In this document: one piece after another, positions 26,211-39,617 of the stretch
Layout: each line of letters opens with the position of its first letter
Numbering within the stretch: position 1 is the first letter of the stretch
Position numbers and translations under genes: made by a program
The notes under the pieces: generated by a model
Database searches by the model: none
The model's input: the letters and a program-made list of their open reading frames with translations, nothing else
What the model was told of the DNA's origin: nothing
From: Ralstonia sp. A12
GTDB taxonomy: Bacteria > Pseudomonadota > Gammaproteobacteria > Burkholderiales > Burkholderiaceae
Assembly: GCF_000801955.1 (NCBI RefSeq)
Contig: NZ_JSZO01000016.1
Span: 62,001 to 126,000, forward strand
DNA length: 64,000 bases
Direction: 5' to 3'

Positions 26211-27305
26211 TTGAGCGCGAATCCGCCTACCGCCTCCGCCCTGCCCGACGCACGCGCGCCCTCTCGCGACTATCAAGCACGCCATTTCGTGCCGATGATT
26301 CTCGCGCTGAGCAAATGCGGTGTGCTGGGTTATGCCTTTGCCATCGTGCTGGGCTGGGGGGCAGGCGTCATCCACACGCTTGCACCACTGCTGGCATTGC
26401 TCGCAGTGCTGACGGCCATCGTGGTGATTGCGCAGCGCCATCGCCATACCGGTTTGTGGGGGCCGCTGGCGCTTGCCCACCTGCTTGCAGAAGAGATCGC
26501 CATCATCGTCTTCGGCCATCAGGCAGGGCTCGAATGGGTGCTGCCCGCGTTCTACCTGATGCCGCTGGCAACCAGCCCTGCATGGCTCACCCGGCGAGAC
26601 TTCAGCATTGCCATGACGCTGTGCGCAGCCGGGCCGATCATCGCCGTGCTCATTGCCGATGCACCCACGGCCACCCTTCACCGTGCTTGGCTGGGGATCG
26701 CGCTGTACCTGCCGATCTGCATTGCCGCAGCTGCGGTCATCCACCGTTACCTGCTGCGTGCGATGGCGCGCCACTTTGCGGCTGAAATCAATCTGGCCGA
26801 TCGCGCCAACACCGACCACCTGACCGGCATGCTCGCGCGCCAGCGCTTCTTCGAGCTGGGCAGCTTTGCCGTGGAACGCGCGCAACACCATGCCGAACCA
26901 CTGTGCGCGCTGTACCTGGATGTCGACCACTTCAAGTCCATCAACGATGCATGGGGCCATGCCGCTGGCGATGAGGCGCTGGTCTCGTTGTCCGATGCGC
27001 TGGCCGATGTGCTGCGCCCGAACGATCTGTTCGGCCGGCTGGGTGGCGACGAGTTTGCCGTGCTGCTGCCCGGCTGTGGTTTGACCGACGCGTTGGCCGT
27101 GGTGGAACGCCTGAAAGCCGCCGTGGGCGCCAGCGCAACACCGGTCGGCCCGTTGACGATCAGCGTGGGCGCCGCGCCGCTGCGCCCGAAGCAGGACCTT
27201 GCCAAGCTGCTGGCCGATGCCGACATTGGGTTGATGGAAGCCAAGCGTCAAGGACGCAACCGCGTGTGCGTACCAGCCGACCTGCAAGCTGACCTGCCGC
27301 AGTGA
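26211..27305 (+). CDS. Membrane-bound diguanylate cyclase (GGDEF)
   Basis: A 364-residue protein with several N-terminal helices (about residues 30-185, probably six) and a C-terminal GGDEF domain (about 200-360). The catalytic motif is RLGGDEFAVL and the metal-site strand is LYLDVDHFKSINDAWGHAAGDEAL. There is no RxxD inhibitory site five residues before GGDEF (the sequence there is NDLFG). It should make cyclic-di-GMP from GTP at the inner membrane. The start is TTG 26211; an ATG 28 codons later is an alternative. It lies 1.2 kb from the Nfr polysaccharide locus, whose synthase carries MshEN c-di-GMP motifs, though on the opposite strand. Confidence 0.88.
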   Translation: MSANPPTASALPDARAPSRDYQARHFVPMILALSKCGVLGYAFAIVLGWGAGVIHTLAPLLALLAVLTAIVVIAQRHRHTGLWGPLALAHLLAEEIAIIVFGHQAGLEWVLPAFYLMPLATSPAWLTRRDFSIAMTLCAAGPIIAVLIADAPTATLHRAWLGIALYLPICIAAAAVIHRYLLRAMARHFAAEINLADRANTDHLTGMLARQRFFELGSFAVERAQHHAEPLCALYLDVDHFKSINDAWGHAAGDEALVSLSDALADVLRPNDLFGRLGGDEFAVLLPGCGLTDALAVVERLKAAVGASATPVGPLTISVGAAPLRPKQDLAKLLADADIGLMEAKRQGRNRVCVPADLQADLPQ

Positions 27306-27352: not shown

Positions 27353-28486
27353 ATGTCTATGGCCATGGAGTGGCTCAACGTCCATACCTTCCTGCGCATA
27401 CCGGCACGTGACTGGGCCGCCGCTGCGCTCACGGTAGTTGCCACGTATGTGGTGCTGGTGAGTGTGCTGCGCCTGATCGGCAACCGGTTGGAGGCCCGTG
27501 CGCGCCGCACCGGCTACCGGTTCGACACGCTGGCTGCGGCCGTGCTGCGCGATACGCACCCGCTGTTCATTGGGCTGGCGGCATTGCTGGCGGGCTCGTA
27601 CTTTATTGAGTTGCCCGCACGCGTGGCCAATAAGCTGGACCACATCTGGTTCGTCATCATCGGGTTCCAGATTGCGCTGTGGCTCAACCGGGGCGTGAAG
27701 CTGTGGGCACGTGACAAGCTGTCTGCGCAAACCCAGACGACACGCAACCCCGTCATCACATCGATGATGGCGTGGGTGCTGCGCTTTGCACTGTGGTCGA
27801 TGCTGCTGCTGGCCATCCTGGCCAATGTGGGCGTGAACGTCACCGCCTTCGTCGCCAGCCTGGGTGTGGGTGGTGTGGCCGTCGCGCTGGCGGTGCAGAA
27901 CATCCTGAGCGATCTGTTTGCCTCGCTTGCCATCGGGCTGGACAAGCCGTTCGAGATTGGCGACTTCATCGTCTTCGAATCGATTGCCGGCACGGTACAG
28001 CACGTGGGGCTCAAGACCACACGTATCCGCAGCCTCTCAGGTGAAGAGATCGTGACGTCCAACACTTCGCTGCTCAAGAGCACCATCCACAATTACAAAC
28101 GGATGCAGGAACGACGCATCGTGTTTGCCTTCGGGGTGACGTACGACGCGCGCGCCGCGCAGCTGCAAAAGATTCCGGACATCGTGCGCCACGCGGTGGA
28201 GACCGCTGGCGACACACGTTTTGATCGTGCGCACTTCAAGGAATTTGGCGAAAACGCGCTGAACTTCGAGGTGGTGTACTTCGTGACCAGCCCAGACTTC
28301 AACCTCTACATGGACATCCAGCAGCGCATCAACCTGGCGATCCTGGAAGAGTTGCAGAACCTCGGTGCGGCGTTCGCACTGCCCACGCGCACCATCCAAC
28401 TGGTACGGCGCCACGGTGAGCCTGTCGAGCCCGATGGAAAGCCTTCAAGCGGCCTGCAGTACCCGAACACGCGAGCTAGGGCCTAG
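27353..28486 (+). CDS. Mechanosensitive ion channel (MscS family)
   Basis: A 377-residue inner-membrane channel. Helices at about residues 18-40, 66-85, 97-115 and 140-160 precede the pore helix with the Gly/Ala-packed motif LGVGGVAVALAVQNILSDLFA, followed by the beta domain KPFEIGDFIVF and GTVQHVGLKTTRIRSL. These are MscS hallmarks; it releases solutes on hypo-osmotic shock. Three ATGs stand at the start (27353, 27359, 27365); GGAG lies eight bases before the second. It follows the GGDEF gene by 47 bp and overlaps the convergent glycosidase-like gene by 11 bp at its 3' end. Confidence 0.9.
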   Translation: MSMAMEWLNVHTFLRIPARDWAAAALTVVATYVVLVSVLRLIGNRLEARARRTGYRFDTLAAAVLRDTHPLFIGLAALLAGSYFIELPARVANKLDHIWFVIIGFQIALWLNRGVKLWARDKLSAQTQTTRNPVITSMMAWVLRFALWSMLLLAILANVGVNVTAFVASLGVGGVAVALAVQNILSDLFASLAIGLDKPFEIGDFIVFESIAGTVQHVGLKTTRIRSLSGEEIVTSNTSLLKSTIHNYKRMQERRIVFAFGVTYDARAAQLQKIPDIVRHAVETAGDTRFDRAHFKEFGENALNFEVVYFVTSPDFNLYMDIQQRINLAILEELQNLGAAFALPTRTIQLVRRHGEPVEPDGKPSSGLQYPNTRARA

Positions 28487-29372
28487 GCGCATCGGGCGGC
28501 CTGACAGGCATGGACTGGAAGGCGGCATCCATGCTGCGCCATAGCGGCCGCGTGCGCGGCACCATGTCCTGTCGGAAGTACCACCAGAAATAGCCGCCTA
28601 CAAATCGCGGATGCGCAATCGACAGGCCGTAGTACTGCGCGATCAACGCGCCCTTGCGTGCGGCAAGGCGTGTACCGACCTCACCAAAGCCGAGCACGGC
28701 ATGCGGAAACAGTTGCCCCAGGCGGTCGAACACTGCACTCCAGTCGGGTCGCGCGATCTTGCAGTCATCTTCGTAAAAGCTGATGAAGACGTAGTCCAGG
28801 CCGTTGCGCAGGTCCGGCGGCAAGTTGCGCTCGGCCCAGCCGAACATGGCGTGTGAGGGTTCTTCCGCGCAGCCCTCGTTGTAGTAGAGCGTGAGCGCCG
28901 TTCTGCCGCCGCGTTGCTTGATGACGGCATAGGCGGCCAGCGTCTTGTCGACCACGTCGCGCGTGCGGCCGGCCCATTCACCGTTGATCTCGTTGCCGAT
29001 TTCCCAGAGGTCGACGTTGCGGCCCAGCGTGTCGATATAGGTGGTGGCGCGCTCGCGCATCTGCAGCACGCTGTATTGCTTGAGCGTGGATGAATCGACC
29101 AGTTCACCCATCACGTAGGCCACGCGCCGGATGGCGGCCACGGGCGCGGCGTAGTCCGGCGCGTCCATCCCCTCATCAAAGACGATGCGCACGGTGGGCG
29201 TGCGCGACAGGTGCGTCAAGGCATCAACCACGGCAGGCACGTTGTCCACCGCATCGATCGTCACCCCATATAGCGGCACGGGGCCGGCAGGCATGGCGCC
29301 CACCTGCCCCGCGGCCTGGGTGGATGCGCCCGATACCAGCATGGCCGCCAGTATCAAGCCCATCCTCTGCAT
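28476..29372 (-). CDS. Secreted glycoside-hydrolase-like protein (clan GH-A fold)
   Basis: A 298-residue protein with a signal peptide (residues 1-20, cleavage after about ASTQA). The rest looks like a TIM barrel of clan A: VDLWEIGNEINGEW places Asn127-Glu128 at the expected acid/base position on strand 4, and AVLGFGEVG places Glu231 as the likely nucleophile on strand 7. I cannot name the GH family. It starts three bases after the stop of the DUF2334 gene, so it is the last gene of the Nfr-type polysaccharide operon. By analogy with PgaB- and PslG-type proteins it may cut the glycan in the periplasm, either for trimming or for release. Substrate not shown. Confidence 0.78.
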   Translation of the reverse strand: MQRMGLILAAMLVSGASTQAAGQVGAMPAGPVPLYGVTIDAVDNVPAVVDALTHLSRTPTVRIVFDEGMDAPDYAAPVAAIRRVAYVMGELVDSSTLKQYSVLQMRERATTYIDTLGRNVDLWEIGNEINGEWAGRTRDVVDKTLAAYAVIKQRGGRTALTLYYNEGCAEEPSHAMFGWAERNLPPDLRNGLDYVFISFYEDDCKIARPDWSAVFDRLGQLFPHAVLGFGEVGTRLAARKGALIAQYYGLSIAHPRFVGGYFWWYFRQDMVPRTRPLWRSMDAAFQSMPVRPPDAPRP

Positions 29373-29375
29373 GGC

Positions 29376-31103
29376 CTACTGCACCGTGCTGGCATCGGCC
29401 CAGGTAAACCCAAGCGCCGAAATGCCGGTGATGATCTGCTGAAAGTCCGTAAAGCCCGCGGTGCCAAGGTCGGGCTCAAGCCAGAATGGGTGGAAGAAGA
29501 ACGAGGCAAAGCCATCGCGCACGACCAGCGCGTAGTTGGCGTTGGTCAGGATGTCCGTCACGTTATAAGTCAGGCAGGACGACGGATCGATCGAGCAGAT
29601 GTTGTACTCCACGTTACCAAGGTTTTCCGGAATGACGCGCTGGTTGTAGTAGTCCTTCTGAATGATGTAGGGGAAGAACTGCCCTACCGAGAAATCATGG
29701 CCCGGCGTGGTGGCCGCCAGCGTCTGCGGGTTGTCGGACGTGTAGTACACCACGCGCTGATACGTGTTCTTGAAGTACTTCGGTACCGCCTTGATGGCCA
29801 ATGGCGACGACTGGTAATGCGGCGCCTCCCACGCAAACGGGGAGTAGCCATTGAGCTGCAGTTCCAGCAACCCCGCCGAAAGACGACCGGCCGCCCATTG
29901 CGTCGAGTCTTCATTCACCGGACGGTTCTGCGTGGCAAGCCAGAACTCATAGTCGTTGGCGCTGACCGCGTTGATCAGGTTCGGGATGTTGCTGTACTGG
30001 TGCGTGTAGCCGTGCATCAGGACATGTCCGCCGCGCGCCCTGGCGTAGTTCAACGCCTGCTTCAGGCCTGTTGCGTTGACCATGTGGATGGTCTGCGCCA
30101 CGCCGCCGTTGTAGACCCCGTTCGGATCGGTGTACACCGGAATGGTCGCGATCGAGAACGGAATCTTCTGCCCGTACATGTAGTCCGTCAGCGTCTTCAT
30201 GGACGCAACCGTGGTCGTCGCGTTCACGTCTTCCAAGCGAACCATTGCACGGTGCAGCGTGGGTGCATTGGTGCCGAGGATGTCATGCAGCATGTCGCAG
30301 ACCACCAGATAGCGGTCGCGCGGCCCGATGAACGAGAACGGCATGTCGGCGAAGTACCAGAAGTTGCCCGAGCGGATAACGTAAGGCACGGGTGGCTTCG
30401 TGGTCGGGCTGGCCGAATTGGAAATGGTCACCAGTGTGGTCGCCTTGGTGGCATCGGCCACCGCCGTCACACCGACATCCGGATCCGCCGCAATGGCACC
30501 AGTGGTGGCATTGAAAGCGTAGTACTTGGTCATCGTCTGACCCTTGTACGTGATCGTGTCGTAGAAGCCGGGGTTCGGTGCGCTGGCCGAGGGCGCCGCA
30601 TTCATGCCAGCGAGGGCGGAGAAGGTGATGCCGTAGCGTGAGGTGAACGGATACGCCGTGTTCCACGCGAGTTCCCACAGGTTGTACTTGAACCAGACCA
30701 CGGTCTTTTGCGTGGTGCTTACGTCCGACAGGAATGCCGCCGGAATGGGATTGGCGTAGTAGCTCCCCATGTAGAACGTGGCGGTGTACTGCTCGGTCAT
30801 GCCAGCCGTGTAGTTCTGCACGGGCAACATTGTGATGGTGGTATTGAAGTGCGCGAGCAGGTTGTACAGCATGATCGCGTACGCCTTGCCCAGATTGGTG
30901 TACTGGTCATTAGGGGGCGCGTCGTACAACACCAGGATGGGGGCTGGGGGGGTCTGCGCCGATGCCGAGCCGCCGACCGTCACGCAGATGGGCCCGAGCC
31001 CGATCGTGCAGGTGGCTGCATGCGCAGGCCCGGTCAGCGAGACGCCAAGCAGGCTTCCCGCAAACACCAGTGCGCAGAGAAACTTACGAAACATTGATTT
31101 CAT
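29376..31103 (-). CDS. DUF2334 protein, NodB-like polysaccharide deacetylase family, secreted
   Basis: A 575-residue protein with a signal peptide (residues 1-30, AHAA). The first half (about 50-265) has a Rossmann-like layout opening with ILVLYDAPP. The second half is the DUF2334 domain: RLEDVN at 289-294 (catalytic and metal Asp), HGYTH at 364-368 (two metal His) and WEAPHY at 425-430. These are the NodB-type deacetylase motifs in order. It could remove acetyl groups from a nascent polysaccharide, as IcaB/PgaB do for PNAG. The start at 31103 has GGAG seven bases upstream; an ATG at 31121 overlaps the previous stop as ATGA and may also be used. Part of the Nfr operon. Confidence 0.82.
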   Translation of the reverse strand: MKSMFRKFLCALVFAGSLLGVSLTGPAHAATCTIGLGPICVTVGGSASAQTPPAPILVLYDAPPNDQYTNLGKAYAIMLYNLLAHFNTTITMLPVQNYTAGMTEQYTATFYMGSYYANPIPAAFLSDVSTTQKTVVWFKYNLWELAWNTAYPFTSRYGITFSALAGMNAAPSASAPNPGFYDTITYKGQTMTKYYAFNATTGAIAADPDVGVTAVADATKATTLVTISNSASPTTKPPVPYVIRSGNFWYFADMPFSFIGPRDRYLVVCDMLHDILGTNAPTLHRAMVRLEDVNATTTVASMKTLTDYMYGQKIPFSIATIPVYTDPNGVYNGGVAQTIHMVNATGLKQALNYARARGGHVLMHGYTHQYSNIPNLINAVSANDYEFWLATQNRPVNEDSTQWAAGRLSAGLLELQLNGYSPFAWEAPHYQSSPLAIKAVPKYFKNTYQRVVYYTSDNPQTLAATTPGHDFSVGQFFPYIIQKDYYNQRVIPENLGNVEYNICSIDPSSCLTYNVTDILTNANYALVVRDGFASFFFHPFWLEPDLGTAGFTDFQQIITGISALGFTWADASTVQ

Positions 31104-31117
31104 GATGGCTCTCCGAC

Positions 31118-31570
31118 TCATGGGCGATACACCGAGCCGTCCGCTTGGCGGTAGAGCCCGAGGTTGAAGGTGGGACCACGGTCGTGGCCACGTTCCGTAC
31201 CGGTTGGCTCGTTCTCTGGCATACCGGGACGGATTTCGGTAATGCCTGGCGGGCGCGGCGGGGGGACGACCTGCCCGTTTTCATCCATCACGCCGTAACC
31301 GTAGGCGCGCCCGCCGCCGGTCACTGGCTTGTGTGTCGCCACGGCCACGACAGCCTGCTGCGCGGGCTGCCCCACCATGACGGTCCCTTCCGAAGAGGCT
31401 GGCGCAGGCTTCTTCTTGTCTGCGTCCGCGCCGGGATTGCGCTGGTCTGTGCCGCCGACAACCACAGCGGGAACCCCCGCATTGCCGGCCCATGGTGGTG
31501 CGAGCACCAGCCATCCCGCGATCAGGGCGGAGGCCAGTAAGATGCTTCCCCCGATTCGTTTCGCTTTCAT
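31118..31570 (-). CDS. Small exported or membrane-anchored protein of unknown function in the Nfr operon
   Basis: A 150-residue protein with one N-terminal hydrophobic segment (about residues 7-28), then a low-complexity Pro/Gly/Ala-rich periplasmic part. There is no lipobox Cys. The C-terminal PTFNLGLYRQADGSVYRP looks like a short ordered piece. It is tightly packed: 9 bp after the epimerase stop and a 4-bp overlap with the DUF2334 gene. It may be an adaptor between the inner-membrane synthase and the outer-membrane exporter, a guess from its position and topology. Not recognised as a known family. Confidence 0.72.
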   Translation of the reverse strand: MKAKRIGGSILLASALIAGWLVLAPPWAGNAGVPAVVVGGTDQRNPGADADKKKPAPASSEGTVMVGQPAQQAVVAVATHKPVTGGGRAYGYGVMDENGQVVPPPRPPGITEIRPGMPENEPTGTERGHDRGPTFNLGLYRQADGSVYRP

Positions 31571-31579
31571 CCAAGCCTC

Positions 31580-32839
31580 CTAGCCGTTCAGGCGTTGCAC
31601 GGACGCGGCCCCAAGCGCCGTGGCGCGTGCCGCTTCCAGATTGATGATCTCGGCCTCGGGGGCCGGCTTGCGAATGAGTTGCGGGCCACGTGCCGCCACT
31701 TGTGCAGGCGCGTTGAAGGCCGCCTTCAATGCATCGACGATGCGGCGGCATGCCTGGCCGTCGCCATACGGGTTGTGGGCCTGCGCCATGCGCTGGTATT
31801 CGTTGGCGTCCTGCAGAAGCATTTCGGCTTCATCCACGATGCGCTGCGTATCGGTGCCGACCAGGCGTGCCGTGCCTGAAGCGACGGCCTCGGGGCGCTC
31901 GGTGGTGTCACGCGTGACCAGCACCGGTTTGCCGAGCGCAGGCGCCTCTTCCTGAATGCCACCGGAATCGGTGATGATCAGGTAGGCGCGGTCCATCAGG
32001 TAGACGAAGGGCAGGTAGTCTTGCGGCGCGATCAGGTGAACGTTGTCGTGGCCCGCCAGGATGGCGTTGACCGGCTGCTGCACGTTGGGGTTCAAGTGCA
32101 CCGGATAGACGATCTGCACATCCGGATGGCGCGCCGCCAGCAGACGCAGCGCCACGCAGAAGTTCTCGAACGGCTCACCAAAGTTCTCACGCCGGTGGCC
32201 CGTCACCAGAATCATCCGCCGCCCGGTTTCCAGAAACGGATAGCGCGCGGCAATGTCCGCCGACAGCGCGGCATCGGCATCCAGCCGCCATTTCACAGAC
32301 AGCAGCGCATCGATGACGGTGTTACCAGTGAGCGTGACCTGGCTCGGGTCGATGCCTTCATCCAGCAGGTTCTGCCGCGATTCTGCCGTCGGTGCGAAGT
32401 GCCACGTGGTGACGGAATCGGTCACGCGGCGGTTGAGTTCTTCCGGCCAGGGGGACCAGATGTTGCCCGTGCGCAGCCCCGCCTCGACGTGCCCCACGGG
32501 AATACGCCGGTAGAACGCGGCCAAGCTGGCAGCCAGTGTGGTGGTGGTGTCGCCGTGCACCAGCACAGCGTCGGGTTGGAAGGCGTCCAGCACGCCATCG
32601 ATGCCGCCCAGCACGCTGGAGGTGATGCCTGACAACGTCTGCCCAGGCTGCATCAGGTTCAGGTCAAATTCCGGCACGATGCCGAATAGTTGAAGGACCT
32701 GGTCGAGCATCTGCCGGTGCTGCGCGCTCACACATACCGCTGAGGTGAAGCCTGCCTCGGCTTGCAATGCCTTTACCAGCGGCGCCATCTTGATGGCCTC
32801 CGGGCGCGTGCCGAACACTGTCAAAATCTTCCCGGTCAT
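31580..32839 (-). CDS. wecB: UDP-N-acetylglucosamine 2-epimerase (non-hydrolysing)
   Basis: A 419-residue cytoplasmic enzyme interconverting UDP-GlcNAc and UDP-ManNAc. Motifs are [12 protein letters not shown] at the N-terminus, [19 protein letters not shown] with the catalytic acid, [12 protein letters not shown] and [16 protein letters not shown]. It is about 40 residues longer than E. coli WecB because of an unmatched C-terminal tail. The start at 32839 has GGGGAG seven bases upstream; the open frame continues upstream without likeness. It lies 227 bp after nfrA on the same strand. A dedicated copy beside nfrAB fits the known need of the E. coli NfrAB pathway for ManNAc precursors. Confidence 0.92.
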
Positions 32840-33066
32840 CTTGCTCTCCCCATGTCGTCTGCATCGGCTGGCTGCTCCAAAGCGCGACGACGAACGCGTC
32901 GCTTCTGATGCCGGCGCAGACTTCACTACAGAGCGAAGGCCGTGCCATGCGTCATGCCTGGTCCTGCCGTGGCGCTGCGACGCCATCGCGCGCGCACCGA
33001 TGCGAATCCTCCTCGTTACCCGTATCCCTCGTTGATCAAAAACGTTTCATCCGTGACACGTTGGTC

Positions 33067-34803
33067 CTAGAACCACAGGATGGCGCGTGCCACTACGCCC
33101 TTCGCTCGATCGGCGTGGGTCAGCGGCAAGCGGTACTGCACAGTCAGGTCAAGCCAACTGGCCGGGGCGCTGTACTGCGTCTCCCGAAACCAGTAACGAA
33201 AGTTGATGCCTGGGCCGACACCCAGCGCGAGTTGCTGGCCAATCGCCTTGTTGTCGTGATCGCCAGCCAGCACCACGTGCGGATACACCGTCAGGTGATC
33301 GCTGATGGAGTTGAGCATCCAGGTGTGTCCGTAGCGCATTTCTGTGCTGAGGATCATGCGGCCTTGGTTGAGGAAGTACGCACCCTCGCCATACACCTGC
33401 CAGGTTTGCCAGCGCGGCTTGGTGACCTGAAGGTCAAGGCCCTGGTCGGTGGAAAAACCGATGCGCAGCAGCGTGTCGTTGGTGGTCTGCTGGCCGATGC
33501 GGAACAGACGCTCGGCGGTGAACACCAGATTGAGGTCCTTGATCGGCTTGTAGCGCGCGCCCACCGAACCCTGCGCAGTTGGCAGGCCGGTGGCACCGTT
33601 GCGGTCGTACACGCTGTCGTAGCCGCGCACGAAGAGCTGGAAGATGCTGCCGTCGCGATAGCCAATGCCCGGCGGCTGCCAGTACACCTCCGCACCACCC
33701 TGCGCCGCGCTGACGGTGTTGGGCAAACCGAATGCTGATGTCTGATACGCGCCCGAGAGCACCATGCCGAACGTGCGCTGCATCTGCTCGACTTCACGCC
33801 GGTAGCCAAAGCGGCGGTCTGCGGGAAGGCTGTCATTTCCGTTGCTACCGCCATCGCTCTTGGCGTCGGCATCTGCGTGGTCCAGGCTCTGGCGGAACAG
33901 CGAGATGGCGGTCGGGTTGTCACCCAGGCGCTTGGCGGCGTAGGCCGCATCGGCGTAGTGCATCCACGTACCCTGCCCGTTGGCAAACCCGCGCTGGAAG
34001 GCTGCCAGCGCCGCGCGGTCGTCGCGTGCGCGCAGGTGGCTATAGGCTTCGTTCAGTTCGCGCTGGCCGATCACACGCGGGTCATCAGGTGAGGTGGCCT
34101 CACCCTGTGCCTGGGGTGTCATCGCCTCGGCAAGTAGCGCCTTGGCGTACCGCTTTTGCGCCGGATCGGTGGCGTGTTCTTCTGCCAGCGTGGCAGCCTG
34201 CGTGGCGCCATCGCGGTCCCCCAGCTGCAGGCGTGATTGCGCGAGGCGCAGTTGCACATCGGCATCCGGCTGCCCCTGCAGGGTACTGAGCGCATCCAGC
34301 GCCGCCTGCGGATGCTTGGCGGAATACGCGCTGTCCGACCATGCCAGATGCAGGTTGCGCTGTTCCTGCACGGTCCAATCGGTGCCTTGCACCGCGTGCG
34401 CAAAGTCCTGCTCGGCCGTGGCCGGGTCGCTCGCCCTCTGCGCCAGGAACCCGTGCTGCGCATACACGCGCGGTTCATTGGGGTACTTCTGCACCAGCGC
34501 ATCCGCCTGCGCGCGTGCTGCATCCAGCTGGCCCTTGCGCGTCAGCACGTCGAGCAGCAGCAGGTTCAGTTGCAGGCTGTCGGGCTGCACAGCCAATGCG
34601 GCGCGCGTGGCGGCCTCGGCATCATCGAGCTTGTTGGCATCGATGGCCCGGTAGGCCCGGTCTGCCCGGAAGTACGCGTCGGGCTGCAACGGCTGCGCAG
34701 CCTGTTCTGCAATCGACACGCCATGACATAGCGCCCACACCGCGGCGGCAATCGGCCACCGCAAATGGCGCAAGGTAAAACGACTAGCTCTCTCGGTTTT
34801 CAT
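33067..34803 (-). CDS. nfrA: NfrA-like outer-membrane polysaccharide export protein (TPR + barrel)
   Basis: A 578-residue protein. A signal peptide (about 1-32, ending GVSIA) leads into tetratricopeptide-like helices to about residue 330 (for example NKLDDAEAATRAALAVQPDS and YPNEPRVYAQHGFLA), then a C-terminal beta-barrel with alternating aromatic strands ending in the classic terminal Phe (VARAILWF). This layout matches phage-N4 receptor NfrA and the PgaA/BcsC export porins. It is shorter than E. coli NfrA (about 990 residues), mostly in the TPR part. Its ATG overlaps the nfrB stop as ATGA. The TPR domain would guide the glycan from the synthase to the outer membrane. Confidence 0.85.
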   Translation of the reverse strand: MKTERASRFTLRHLRWPIAAAVWALCHGVSIAEQAAQPLQPDAYFRADRAYRAIDANKLDDAEAATRAALAVQPDSLQLNLLLLDVLTRKGQLDAARAQADALVQKYPNEPRVYAQHGFLAQRASDPATAEQDFAHAVQGTDWTVQEQRNLHLAWSDSAYSAKHPQAALDALSTLQGQPDADVQLRLAQSRLQLGDRDGATQAATLAEEHATDPAQKRYAKALLAEAMTPQAQGEATSPDDPRVIGQRELNEAYSHLRARDDRAALAAFQRGFANGQGTWMHYADAAYAAKRLGDNPTAISLFRQSLDHADADAKSDGGSNGNDSLPADRRFGYRREVEQMQRTFGMVLSGAYQTSAFGLPNTVSAAQGGAEVYWQPPGIGYRDGSIFQLFVRGYDSVYDRNGATGLPTAQGSVGARYKPIKDLNLVFTAERLFRIGQQTTNDTLLRIGFSTDQGLDLQVTKPRWQTWQVYGEGAYFLNQGRMILSTEMRYGHTWMLNSISDHLTVYPHVVLAGDHDNKAIGQQLALGVGPGINFRYWFRETQYSAPASWLDLTVQYRLPLTHADRAKGVVARAILWF

Positions 34804-36920
34804 GCCACACCTCCCGCAACAGATGGATTGGGGCGTACCTCTGGGCCGGGCGCCAGATCTGGCAGCACCGGTGTCGGAGGTATCGGGGGGATGGGGGTAG
34901 CCTCGGGTGCGGATGCCGTGCCTGCTGCAACTGCCGGGCCGGCGCCCGTCATGGATTCGACGGCCAGGGTGGCCGAATATGCCGCCGGGCCAAACACGAC
35001 CGTGGCGCGGCGGTTGGGGTCGGCCATCAGTGCCAGCTCGGCCAACATCTCGTGGTCGCATGCCATGAAGCATGCAACCTTGCGGCCGGCCGCACGGGCC
35101 AGCTCTTCCAGCACTTCGCCGTTGGGCAGCTCCGACACGGCAATATTGAGCGAGCCGTCCTCGCCAATGGAGAACGGCACCACGTGATGCCGCACAGCCA
35201 GGTCACGCGGCAGGCAATCGGCCAGCGCGCCCAGCACAACATTGGTCAGGCTCACGCGCGGCAGATCAACCTGTTCAGCCAGCGCATCGGCCAGCGTGTC
35301 GGCCGTCACCAGCCCTTGCTGGACGAGGATGGTCCCCAGCCGGCGGCCGGTCTCCCGCTGCATCGCCAGCGCCGCATCAAGCTGCGCTTGCGTCAGCACT
35401 TCCCACTTGAGCAAGGTCTCGCCCAGCATGGAGCGCGTGCGGCCGAGCGCGTCGTTCGACAGGTAGGTGTGCTGGGTCTTGTCCCACGCGATCGGCTTGC
35501 CGGTCAGGCAGTAGACCAGGAAGATCTTCCACGCCCGGCACACCGAGAAGAAGTTGATGAAGTTGTTCACCACCAGCCTGGGCAAGCACAGCACGCCCTG
35601 CAGCGGGCCATTGAGCCGCCCGACAAAGTACATGCGCTGCGCCAGGCGGTTCACCAACAGCGTCGCGTTGATGGCCAGCAGGTCCTGCATCCACGGGGTG
35701 CCGACCACGAACGTACCGTCAGGAATCGACACCCATCCCCTGGCCAGCAATGCGCCGATCACCAGATAGTTGAGCGACAGCACATAGGCCAGGATCGAAA
35801 ACAGCGCGGTCAACACGCCCTTGCGGTCACGGAAGAACATGTATCGGGTGATGAGGTTGCCCTTCCACCCCATCTGCAGCCAGCCCTGGAACGCGATGCC
35901 CAGTACCCAGCGCGCACGCTGCCGGTAGGCAGTACGGAAGGTGCTTGGAAAGTACTCGCGCGTTGCCAACAACTGTGGGCGCACACCACGGCGGCGCCCA
36001 AGGCGCCAGCGGGTGCGTGTCTTGCCTTCAGCATCCTCCGCAGGCGCCGCGTTCTCGCAGATCGGGAAGTGCACGAAGGCTTCACGCATGCCCAGGTCGT
36101 GCAAGCGGAAGCTGAAGTCGTAGTCTTCCGTGAGCGTGCTGGTGTTGAAGGGCGAGTCCCCGCGCACCTTCATCACGGCTTCGATTGCGCGGCGGCTGTA
36201 GCACAGCGCCACGCCCGCGCCGGGCACCGTGCCGGTCAGCGCCTGGCGTGCCACCAAGTCTTTCTGGTGTGTCTCGGAGAAATCATCCATGTAGGTGCCG
36301 GCCACCCACTCGTACCACTTGCGCTCAAGCGAGAGCACCGGCAACTGCACCAGATCCTGGTCGCCGATGAAGTAGTTGAAGTACTTCAGCTCCAGCGGGT
36401 GAATCACGTCTTCGCAGTCGTGCATGATCACGCCCGCAAAGCGGATGCCGTGGCCCGCTTCGTAGCGGATGATGGTCTGGATGATGGTGTTCAGGCAGTC
36501 GGCCTTGCAGGTGGGGCCGTCGTGCGTAACGGCTGCCCGCACCACGCGGCCCGGGTAACGGCGCACCATGCGCTCGACCTCGGTGGTGGTCTCGGCATCA
36601 TTGCGGTAGGCCCCGGCAAAGATGATGAAGTGCGCGTACTCCATCGTCGCCAAGGTGTTCTCCACCATCTTGGCGATGACGTCGTACTCCTTCCAGGCCG
36701 GCACCATGACGGCGAGCCACTGCTCTTCGCGGTCACGCAGTGCCTGTGCGGAGATGGTGACGGGCGTACGGCCGCGCTGCGGCCAGAGCCAAAGCTCCCG
36801 CACCCAGTAGAAGGCGTCCAGGAAGAAATCGTCGGCGGTGCTGATGAGGATGACGAGCGTGGTCGCCACCGTCAGCGTGTTGAGCAACGCCAGGTAGATT
36901 TCCCATGGCACATCGCTCAT
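34800..36920 (-). CDS. nfrB: NfrB-like polysaccharide synthase, glycosyltransferase 2 with MshEN c-di-GMP-binding domain
   Basis: A 706-residue inner-membrane enzyme. The GT2 domain (about 65-345) has all processive-synthase hallmarks: Asp141 (KADCLN), HDCED at 167-171, TED at 264-266 and QRARW at 334-338. Transmembrane helices are at about 8-30, 370-395 and 440-470. Two tandem MshEN motifs follow at 499-518 and 528-547 (LG-x2-LL/LV-x2-G/E-x-LT/VT...L-x2-AL), then a GSPII-E N-like domain to about 635 and a Pro-rich tail. In E. coli, NfrB is switched on by c-di-GMP through this domain. The start at 36920 has GGAGG six bases upstream. First gene of the polysaccharide operon. Confidence 0.9.
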   Translation of the reverse strand: MSDVPWEIYLALLNTLTVATTLVILISTADDFFLDAFYWVRELWLWPQRGRTPVTISAQALRDREEQWLAVMVPAWKEYDVIAKMVENTLATMEYAHFIIFAGAYRNDAETTTEVERMVRRYPGRVVRAAVTHDGPTCKADCLNTIIQTIIRYEAGHGIRFAGVIMHDCEDVIHPLELKYFNYFIGDQDLVQLPVLSLERKWYEWVAGTYMDDFSETHQKDLVARQALTGTVPGAGVALCYSRRAIEAVMKVRGDSPFNTSTLTEDYDFSFRLHDLGMREAFVHFPICENAAPAEDAEGKTRTRWRLGRRRGVRPQLLATREYFPSTFRTAYRQRARWVLGIAFQGWLQMGWKGNLITRYMFFRDRKGVLTALFSILAYVLSLNYLVIGALLARGWVSIPDGTFVVGTPWMQDLLAINATLLVNRLAQRMYFVGRLNGPLQGVLCLPRLVVNNFINFFSVCRAWKIFLVYCLTGKPIAWDKTQHTYLSNDALGRTRSMLGETLLKWEVLTQAQLDAALAMQRETGRRLGTILVQQGLVTADTLADALAEQVDLPRVSLTNVVLGALADCLPRDLAVRHHVVPFSIGEDGSLNIAVSELPNGEVLEELARAAGRKVACFMACDHEMLAELALMADPNRRATVVFGPAAYSATLAVESMTGAGPAVAAGTASAPEATPIPPIPPTPVLPDLAPGPEVRPNPSVAGGVA

Positions 36921-37675: not shown

Positions 37676-39502
37676 TCAGAACTGTTCCCAGTCATCTGCA
37701 TCGCTGGCGGCAGCGGCAATTGCCAGCTTGCCAGGCTTGGGCTCGATTGCCGCGGCAGGGGCTGCCGTCGGGGTGGATGCCGCCGGCGTCAATGCCGCTT
37801 TGGCAGGCGCGGCGGCAGACAACACCGCAGGCTTGCGTGCAGCACGCTTGATTGTCGAGGCAGGCTTGCGCACGACAGGTTTGGCAGCAGCAACCGGCGC
37901 AGCCGACGGTGCCTTCGAAACGCTCACCACAGCCGTCGGCAGAGCATGCGTGCCAGCCGGCGGCAGACGGAACGAGGCAACGGTTTCGCGCAGCACGCCC
38001 GCCTGCTCTTCCAGCGATTGCGCAGCGGCAGCGGCCTCCTCCACCAGTGCCGCGTTCTGCTGCGTCACCTCGTCCATCTGCGTGACGGCCTGGTTGACTT
38101 GCTCGATGCCGGCGCTCTGTTCGTCCGACGCGGCGCTGATCTCGCCCATGATGTCGGTCACGCGCTTGACGGCCACCACCACTTCGTCGATCACCGAGCC
38201 CGCTTCGGTCACAAGCGTCGAGCCGTTTTCAACACGGCCAACCGAATCGCTGATGAGCTCCTTGATTTCCTTGGCCGCCGTGGCCGAGCGCTGCGCCAGG
38301 CTGCGCACTTCACCCGCCACCACAGCAAAGCCGCGGCCTTGCTCGCCCGCACGTGCAGCTTCCACTGCGGCGTTCAGGGCAAGGATGTTGGTCTGGAAGG
38401 CAATCCCTTCAATCACGCCAATGATGTCGGCGATCTTCTTGCTGCTGTTGTTGATGCCGGACATCGTTTCAATGACGCGGCCCACCACCTCACCGCCCTT
38501 GACGGCGATGTCCGAAGCGTTGCCCGCGAGTTGGCTCGCCTGACGCGCGTTGTCGGCGTTCTGCTTCACGATGCTGGTCAGCTCTTCCATGCTGGAAGCC
38601 GTCTCTTCCAGCGAAGACGCCTGCTCTTCCGTACGCTGCGAGAGGTCCAGGTTGCCGGCGGCAATCTGCTTGGTGGCGCTAGCGATGGAATCGCTGCCGC
38701 CGCGCATCGTCTCGATCGTGCGGATCAGACCGCGCTGCATGTCGATCAGGCCGCGGGTGAGCGCGCCCATTTCGTCATGGCTGCTCACGGTGATGTGCTC
38801 GGTCAGGTTGCCGCGCGAGATCTCGCCAAAGTGGCCAAGCATGCGCGCCAGCGGTACGGAGATCGCGCGATGCAGGCCAAACGCGCAGCCCAGCGCTGCA
38901 GCAATGCCCACCACGATGGCGCCGATGATCAGCATCAGAAACGCGTGCGAACGGGCCACGGCGTCGTCGTACCCGGCCTTGGCCTGCTCGGACTGGCTGC
39001 GATCCAGCGCATCTGCGGCGGCGGTCAATGCCACCGACAGCGGCGGAATGACGTCCATGACCACTTTGTCGGCTGCGGCTGTGTCACGGGCACGCAACGC
39101 GTTCATCAGCGGCTCAATGCCATCGCGGAACAACGCTGCGCGCTTGGCTTCCACATCGGTGGCCAGACGCGCCTCGTCGGCACTCATGGGCAGCGCCTTG
39201 TACTGCTTCCAGGCGTCGTCCGACTTTGCGCGGTAGCTATTGGCCTTGTCGAGGATCGCCGGTACCTCAGCGGCATCGGGGTGGAAGACTGCGCGATCCA
39301 GCGTGGTGCGCACGATGGCGGCATGCAGTTGCGCCTTGGCAACCAGCGAGGTCGAAGCGAGCTGGTTGCTGTAAATCTCTTTGATAGTCGCGTCAGAAGC
39401 GCGCATGCCGACGACGCCGATGGTGCCAATGGTGGCCAGCAGCACGGCGAGCAGCGCGAGGGCTGCATTGAGTCGGAAACGGATGGAAAGTCGATTGAAC
39501 AT
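37676..39502 (-). CDS. Methyl-accepting chemotaxis protein with C-terminal CheR-tether-like pentapeptide
   Basis: A 608-residue chemoreceptor. TM1 is about residues 10-33, a four-helix-bundle periplasmic domain runs to about 187, TM2 about 188-212, then HAMP and the long signalling coiled coil. The hairpin tip, [20 protein letters not shown] followed by [16 protein letters not shown], is nearly invariant. An Ala/Pro/Lys-rich linker of about 75 residues leads to the final DDWEQF, which matches the W-x-x-F tether where CheR/CheB dock. The ATG at 39502 is preferred over an upstream TTG. The sensor domain resembles Tar-type 4HB; the ligand is unknown. A weak GCCGTTAT element upstream (39544-39551) lacks a matching -35. 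Confidence 0.92.
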
Positions 39503-39617
39503 GGGATGTAAAGCGGGCGGCAAAACTAGTTGAGGCCCCCGCTATAACGGCCAGTCCGCGCCATTTCTGAAGTCTGGCGCGGACAGAATCCCACGTATGG
39601 ACGACTGCAGTAAGTGG

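Follow-up and report, generated by a model that had tools for sequence, protein, structure and literature searches.

The nfr gene cluster and its products

The window, i.e., the whole 64,000-nucleotide stretch of contig NZ_JSZO01000016.1 of Ralstonia sp. A12 analysed here (host genome, 6.1 Mb), carries a predicted exopolysaccharide locus related to the one that makes the phage N4 glycan receptor (NGR) of Escherichia coli. Six open reading frames (ORFs), all on the minus strand at 28476-36920, encode NfrB, NfrA, WecB, a small exported protein, a DUF2334 protein and a glycoside hydrolase (GH)-like protein, in this order, and all six lie where a preliminary description of the window had placed them. 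The locus is probably an Nfr-type (NGR-type) operon for a synthase-dependent exopolysaccharide, extended by a module that would N-deacetylate and cut the polymer. Its features are as follows.

34800..36920, minus strand: nfrB, inner-membrane family 2 glycosyltransferase (GT2) synthase with a C-terminal MshEN domain for cyclic di-GMP (c-di-GMP), 706 aa (NF012033, PF13641/PF13632, PF05157)
35037..35426, minus strand: predicted MshEN c-di-GMP region of NfrB, residues about 499-628 (NF053729, PF05157)
33067..34803, minus strand: nfrA, predicted exporter with TPR and outer-membrane barrel, 578 aa (PF13283 NfrA_C)
31580..32839, minus strand: wecB, non-hydrolysing UDP-GlcNAc 2-epimerase, supply of UDP-N-acetylmannosamine (UDP-ManNAc) (TIGR00236)
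31118..31570, minus strand: small exported protein with a proline-rich C-terminal motif, 150 aa (no family match)
29376..31121, minus strand: DUF2334 protein, N-terminal alpha/beta domain and NodB/CE4-like deacetylase domain, 581 aa (PF10096, predicted fold)
28476..29372, minus strand: GH-like protein, (beta/alpha)8 barrel resembling clan GH-A, 298 aa, putative acid/base E128 and nucleophile E231

The nfrB and nfrA genes overlap by 4 bp, as do the small-protein and DUF2334 genes; wecB is 9 bp from the small-protein gene, and the DUF2334 gene 3 bp from the GH-like gene. The spacing between nfrA and wecB is 227 bp with the WecB start at the ATG at 32839; a longer wecB ORF begins at 32986.

The window proteins were scanned against Pfam and NCBIfam at an E-value of 0.001. 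NfrB matched NF012033 with 1138 bits (cut-off 537) and fell under the cut-off of 1170 for NF008411, the E. coli-type NfrB equivalog (554 bits). It exceeded the cut-offs for PF05157 MshEN (41 bits) and the c-di-GMP motif NF053729 (63 bits). The catalytic residues D168, E265-D266 and R337-W338 were invariant in all 70 aligned NfrBs. L499, G500 and L547 aligned with the E. coli MshEN residues L490, G491 and L537, mutation of which reduced N4 plating (passages of PMC8669469/PMC8669472); the G500 position was kept in 68 of the 70 proteins, and both Leu positions vary among L, I and V. E. coli NfrB binds c-di-GMP, and its function depends on WecB (passages of PMC8669469 and PMC8669472). NfrA matched PF13283 (NfrA_C) with 166 bits, with weak TPR matches below or near the cut-off. 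Both Nfr proteins are thus placed by profile searches in the families first proposed for them. WecB belongs clearly to TIGR00236 (514 bits, cut-off 210), which upholds its earlier assignment; its gene is one of three wecB genes in the genome, another of which sits in a second Nfr locus. The parts of an Nfr (NGR) system are therefore present: an NfrB with the GT2 motifs D, TED and QxxRW and MshEN, an NfrA_C exporter and a wecB gene.

The DUF2334 protein matched PF10096 with 151 bits. Its predicted model has a fold like NodB and carbohydrate esterase family 4 (CE4), in keeping with the NodB-like motifs seen before, and the nearest whole-length structure matches were NDST1 and Agd3. Residues E297, D298, H370, H374, R456, D536 and H544 were invariant in 25 of 25 aligned rows and in two further proteins. 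Compared with the CE18 catalytic motifs CM1-CM4 of Agd3 (Asp-Asp, HxxxH, Arg and His), the ED pair, HxxxH, R456 and H544 are present and the base is a Glu, E297 standing where Asp is usual; the fold is alike at a low TM-score, with no sequence match. On its predicted model, the protein looks like a CE4-type N-deacetylase. The family profile (A1), from which L026 was omitted because its DUF2334 gene is in two pieces, reached a best, meaningless E-value of 0.48 against PDB chains, and at E 1e-8 it found nothing in 349 genomes of the phylum beyond the window's own protein. No tblastn match to the DUF2334 or GH-like protein was found at E 0.01 among 50,697 phage records. Long DUF2334 genes also occur away from nfr (L113, L114, L115, L116 and L120), one of them plasmid-borne in Burkholderia vietnamiensis, with annotated diguanylate cyclase genes nearby.

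The GH-like protein matched no Pfam or NCBIfam model in the scan. In clan GH-A, the (beta/alpha)8 barrel has one catalytic Glu, with an Asn before it, after strand 4 and a second on strand 7. This fold and these Glu positions were found in the predicted TIM-barrel model, the Glu pair having been noted in the preliminary description, and both glutamates (E128, E231) were conserved in all 25 aligned rows. The GH profile (A2) reached a best E-value of 0.29 against PDB chains, likewise meaningless, and hhalign, run with few sequences in each of the two alignments compared, detected no homology with a Streptomyces GH113 protein or a plasmid DUF4434 protein. The same genome has another member of the GH family (C58:175962-176921, L111), which scores higher on a Burkholderia-rich profile and lies near a GH114 gene and a nucleotidyl transferase; such a second copy is present in all 15 sampled genomes of the genus that have the locus.

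The DUF2334 or GH-like protein might instead be a non-catalytic scaffold or binding protein, as the unusual base E297 could suggest, and YbcH, the DUF4434 protein encoded third in the E. coli operon, is called a putative scaffold in passages of PMC8669469/PMC8669472. However, DUF2334 proteins of Ralstonia, Burkholderia, Myxococcales, Streptomyces and a genome of another family (G332, see below) conserve the residues predicted for the metal site and the acid, and neither GH glutamate varies. We consider this explanation very unlikely.

The small exported protein matched no Pfam or NCBIfam model at the same threshold. A protein with a similar C-terminus lies directly 5' of the DUF2334 gene in 30 of 40 DUF2334 rows, as judged by eye, and BLAST found a similar C-terminus also in L009 and L044. 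The Ralstonia and Burkholderia forms appear to be kin, by eye and without a statistic.

Recurrence of the gene set in other genomes

Linkage was counted in 299 sampled genomes of the family. NfrB was called close at 700 bits or more, a cut chosen after the list had been seen; the split pieces from Ralstonia in G530 and G544 were added to this class. Close NfrB occurred in 42 genomes, with a long DUF2334 protein in all 42 and the GH-like protein in 41, and neither was found in the other 257 family genomes; of 95 genomes matching NfrB, the 53 with only a distant one belong to this latter group. Fisher p-values for linkage to DUF2334 and GH were 3e-52 and 8e-50, kinship being ignored. The short DUF2334 fragments G631:C206:9776 and G465:C28:5015 were left out of the count. 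Of the 59 copies of DUF2334, 40 lay within 12 kb of a close nfrB, as did 41 of the 56 copies of GH. In the window's genus, 15 sampled genomes including its own had all three proteins and one (G473) had none; the nearest named relatives of the window NfrB are from Ralstonia, including R. pickettii (89-95% identical).

The genes of 38 loci formed 11 order strings, one of them cut by a contig end (L037); the string of L118 omits NfrA, which scored below 100 bits there. The set described for the window thus recurs in related genera, with its order reshuffled between them. It could be argued that the glycan is an ordinary N-acetylated NGR-like one, exported without deacetylation, and that the DUF2334 and GH-like proteins are turnover or dispersal enzymes; copies of both exist away from nfr, and the GH gene lies on the strand opposite to nfrB in Burkholderia- and Trinickia-type strings. 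In Ralstonia, however, all six genes form one packed run, and the predicted DUF2334 model resembles Agd3 and PelA, which are active during polymer making. We regard turnover as an unlikely explanation, though one of some weight.

In the fetched stretches of 29 non-Ralstonia DUF2334 loci, nfrA was found in 28, DUF4434 in 26, GH in 23 and wecB in 19. The absence of wecB from the other 10 would agree with a chain that is not based on ManNAc, in which case WecB would serve another pathway and NfrB would use another UDP-N-acetylhexosamine (UDP-HexNAc), deacetylated by the DUF2334 protein; glmS, found beside six loci, is compatible with any HexNAc. But the cluster includes wecB in the window, in all 8 Ralstonia loci, in the strings of Trinickia and Paraburkholderia and in G332, L042, L048 and L118; wecB also stands beside an unrelated GT2 in Streptomyces, and E. 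coli genetics link NfrB to WecB (passages of PMC8669469 and PMC8669472). A chain without ManNAc therefore seems quite improbable.

The flanks of the cluster served as a control. Two of the flanking features are listed here.

27353-28486: MscS channel, convergent flank
37676-39523: MCP receptor, upstream flank

In the same 29 loci, MscS, NRAMP and a dehydrogenase were each found in none, GGDEF in 2 and MCP in 5, the last two being large families. A GGDEF protein encoded on the other strand at 26211-27305 (PF00990, 130 bits), 1.2 kb past the cluster, is a possible local diguanylate cyclase.

A search with PF10096 only gave matches in 67 of 399 genomes of the order. Just two exceeded 150 bits, the window's own protein (153 bits) and one from G332 (172 bits); the next reached 100. 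The G332 locus belongs to another family, is low in third-position GC, and encodes DUF2334, WecB, NfrB with the c-di-GMP motif, NfrA, DUF4434 and GH proteins; since the search used PF10096 only, it confirms the gene set independently. Its DUF2334 protein is extended at the N-terminus by a proline-rich stretch that, by eye, resembles the small exported protein, and it may be a fusion with such a part. Chance neighbourhood was considered and ruled out by the family-wide counts, the flank control and the G332 locus.

Related arrangements occur elsewhere. A Comamonadaceae plasmid carries genes for WecB, NfrB (no MshEN detected), a 100-aa protein, DUF2334, NfrA and DUF4434. A Myxococcales contig (L048) has GH113 beside DUF2334, nfrB, nfrA and wecB. 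The Streptomyces plasmid NZ_CP108510.1 (L119) has wecB, a GT2 not recognisable as NfrB, DUF2334 and GH113, with no NfrA-like gene among the listed features. Of 73 Nfr-type loci scanned, 5 contain glmS, all of DUF2334 type and four from Paraburkholderia, and glmS is also in the G332 locus; it was noted beside L012, L020, L026, L041, L047 and L146.

The second Nfr locus of the genome (L112, C24:26000-44000) contains wecB, a BcsB-like gene, nfrB, nfrA, two AlgX-like genes (PF16822) and MBOAT, and its NfrB is 47% identical to that of the window. Past its end lies a DUF4434-like gene (C24:44855-45613), found with our own DUF4434 profile; PF14488 misses the Burkholderia form. YbcH of E. coli (L141, 2092-2982) is a DUF4434 protein (235 bits), and DUF4434-like genes were found in 40 of the 73 loci, of both kinds, where loci scored without one may carry it outside the fetched stretch. 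On a tree of 70 NfrBs, 36 had DUF2334 without bcsB, 28 bcsB without DUF2334, 5 neither and 1 both, namely Ramlibacter L042, where DUF2334 is paired with nfrB. This quick tree has long branches (L118, L040, L048) and omits L008, L037, L044 and NfrBs below 350 bits, including L119. The DUF2334 label needs three changes on it, so the partition largely follows clades, and with only three independent pairs the mutual exclusion has no significance.

A proposed working of the locus

From the gene families, conserved catalytic residues, predicted folds and recurrent linkage we infer, with moderate confidence, an NGR-like polymer of ManNAc, made under c-di-GMP control and subject to N-deacetylation and cutting; the arrangement would function in the manner of PgaABCD or Pel but with proteins of other families. 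WecB would supply UDP-ManNAc, and c-di-GMP on MshEN would switch on NfrB, which would build a chain containing ManNAc and pass it through the inner membrane. Once in the periplasm, part of this chain would lose its N-acetyl groups to the DUF2334 protein, with the small exported protein as a possible helper. The GH-A-like enzyme would cut the chain, probably at beta links, and NfrA would export the product, a partly cationic, mannosamine-containing surface glycan.

Confidence in this proposal is lowered by the low TM-scores with which the DUF2334 model matched NDST1 and Agd3, and by exceptions to the linkage: G512 and G658 each have a further nfrB copy that lacks both DUF2334 and GH, the DUF2334 gene of G483 is about 200 kb away, and G427 has no GH.

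The module of wecB, GT2, DUF2334 and a TIM-barrel hydrolase recurs with unrelated parts, on the Streptomyces plasmid and the Myxococcales contig. Because GH113 enzymes are beta-mannanases, the choice of hydrolase points to a manno-configured beta chain. We tentatively suggest, as a possibility still in doubt, that the product is a beta-linked exopolysaccharide of the polymannosamine type, de-N-acetylated in part, which would be a cationic class distinct from poly-N-acetylglucosamine (PNAG), Pel and galactosaminogalactan (GAG).

Recurrence of the set among related soil-dwelling and opportunistic bacteria suggests that the N4 receptor sugar has a relative that has been little studied; as recently as 2025 the NGR itself was termed an enigmatic polysaccharide (passages of PMC11990801). 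As glycan-deacetylase tailspikes occur in N4-like E. coli phages (passages of PMC8669469/PMC8669472), host-side deacetylation may alter which phages bind. The deacetylase and hydrolase dedicated to this subtype could, once purified, reveal through their activities which sugar and linkage Nfr glycans have. If the proposal is true, Burkholderiaceae would have a further route to cationic biofilm polymers besides Pga and Pel, and long-form DUF2334 proteins would gain a testable function.

Comparison with known systems

The literature drawn on comprises passages of PMC8669469, PMC8669472, PMC7229062, PMC13254593 and PMC11990801. The locus shares with E. coli nfrBA-ybcH/wecB an NfrB with GT2 and MshEN (38% identity over 616 aa), an NfrA_C exporter and WecB supply. 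In contrast, the E. coli operon has DUF4434 (YbcH) third and neither DUF2334 nor a window-type GH, whereas the window run has wecB, the small protein, DUF2334 and GH and no DUF4434, the genome's DUF4434-like gene being at the second Nfr locus. DUF2334 or GH partners of Nfr were not found in the literature searched or in the text passages of PMC8669469 and PMC8669472, figures and supplements aside. The L112 type of locus (BcsB, AlgX-like, MBOAT, DUF4434) was already partly described in 2021, for Achromobacter and Simplicispira (passages of PMC8669469 and PMC8669472). Such BcsB/O-acetylation clusters have wecB, NfrB and an NfrA-type exporter in common with the window, but differ in the BcsB-like protein, in AlgX-like proteins (PF16822) and MBOAT in some, and in lacking DUF2334 except in L042.

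PelA of the Pel system, Agd3 (CE18), BcPelADA (CE26) and NDST1 resemble the DUF2334 protein in having a CE4-like deacetylase domain preceded by further domains; they differ in that the DUF2334 profile has no PDB sequence match better than that given above. Agd3 homologues occur in Burkholderia, some Gram-negative ones near Pel-like genes, and the bacterial ones are reported with GH114 rather than the window-type GH (passages of PMC7229062).

PgaABCD, which makes PNAG, likewise has a GT2 synthase, a TPR-barrel exporter, and deacetylase and glycosidase functions, the latter two being predicted for the window. PgaB joins its deacetylase and GH in one protein. The window has them on separate genes, its proteins are of other families, and c-di-GMP sensing would be by MshEN; no PgaC or PgaB model was among the Pfam and NCBIfam matches of the window genes. 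Taken as a functional analogy, the PgaABCD-like arrangement of the preliminary description is the best reading left; the locus is not a PgaABCD member.
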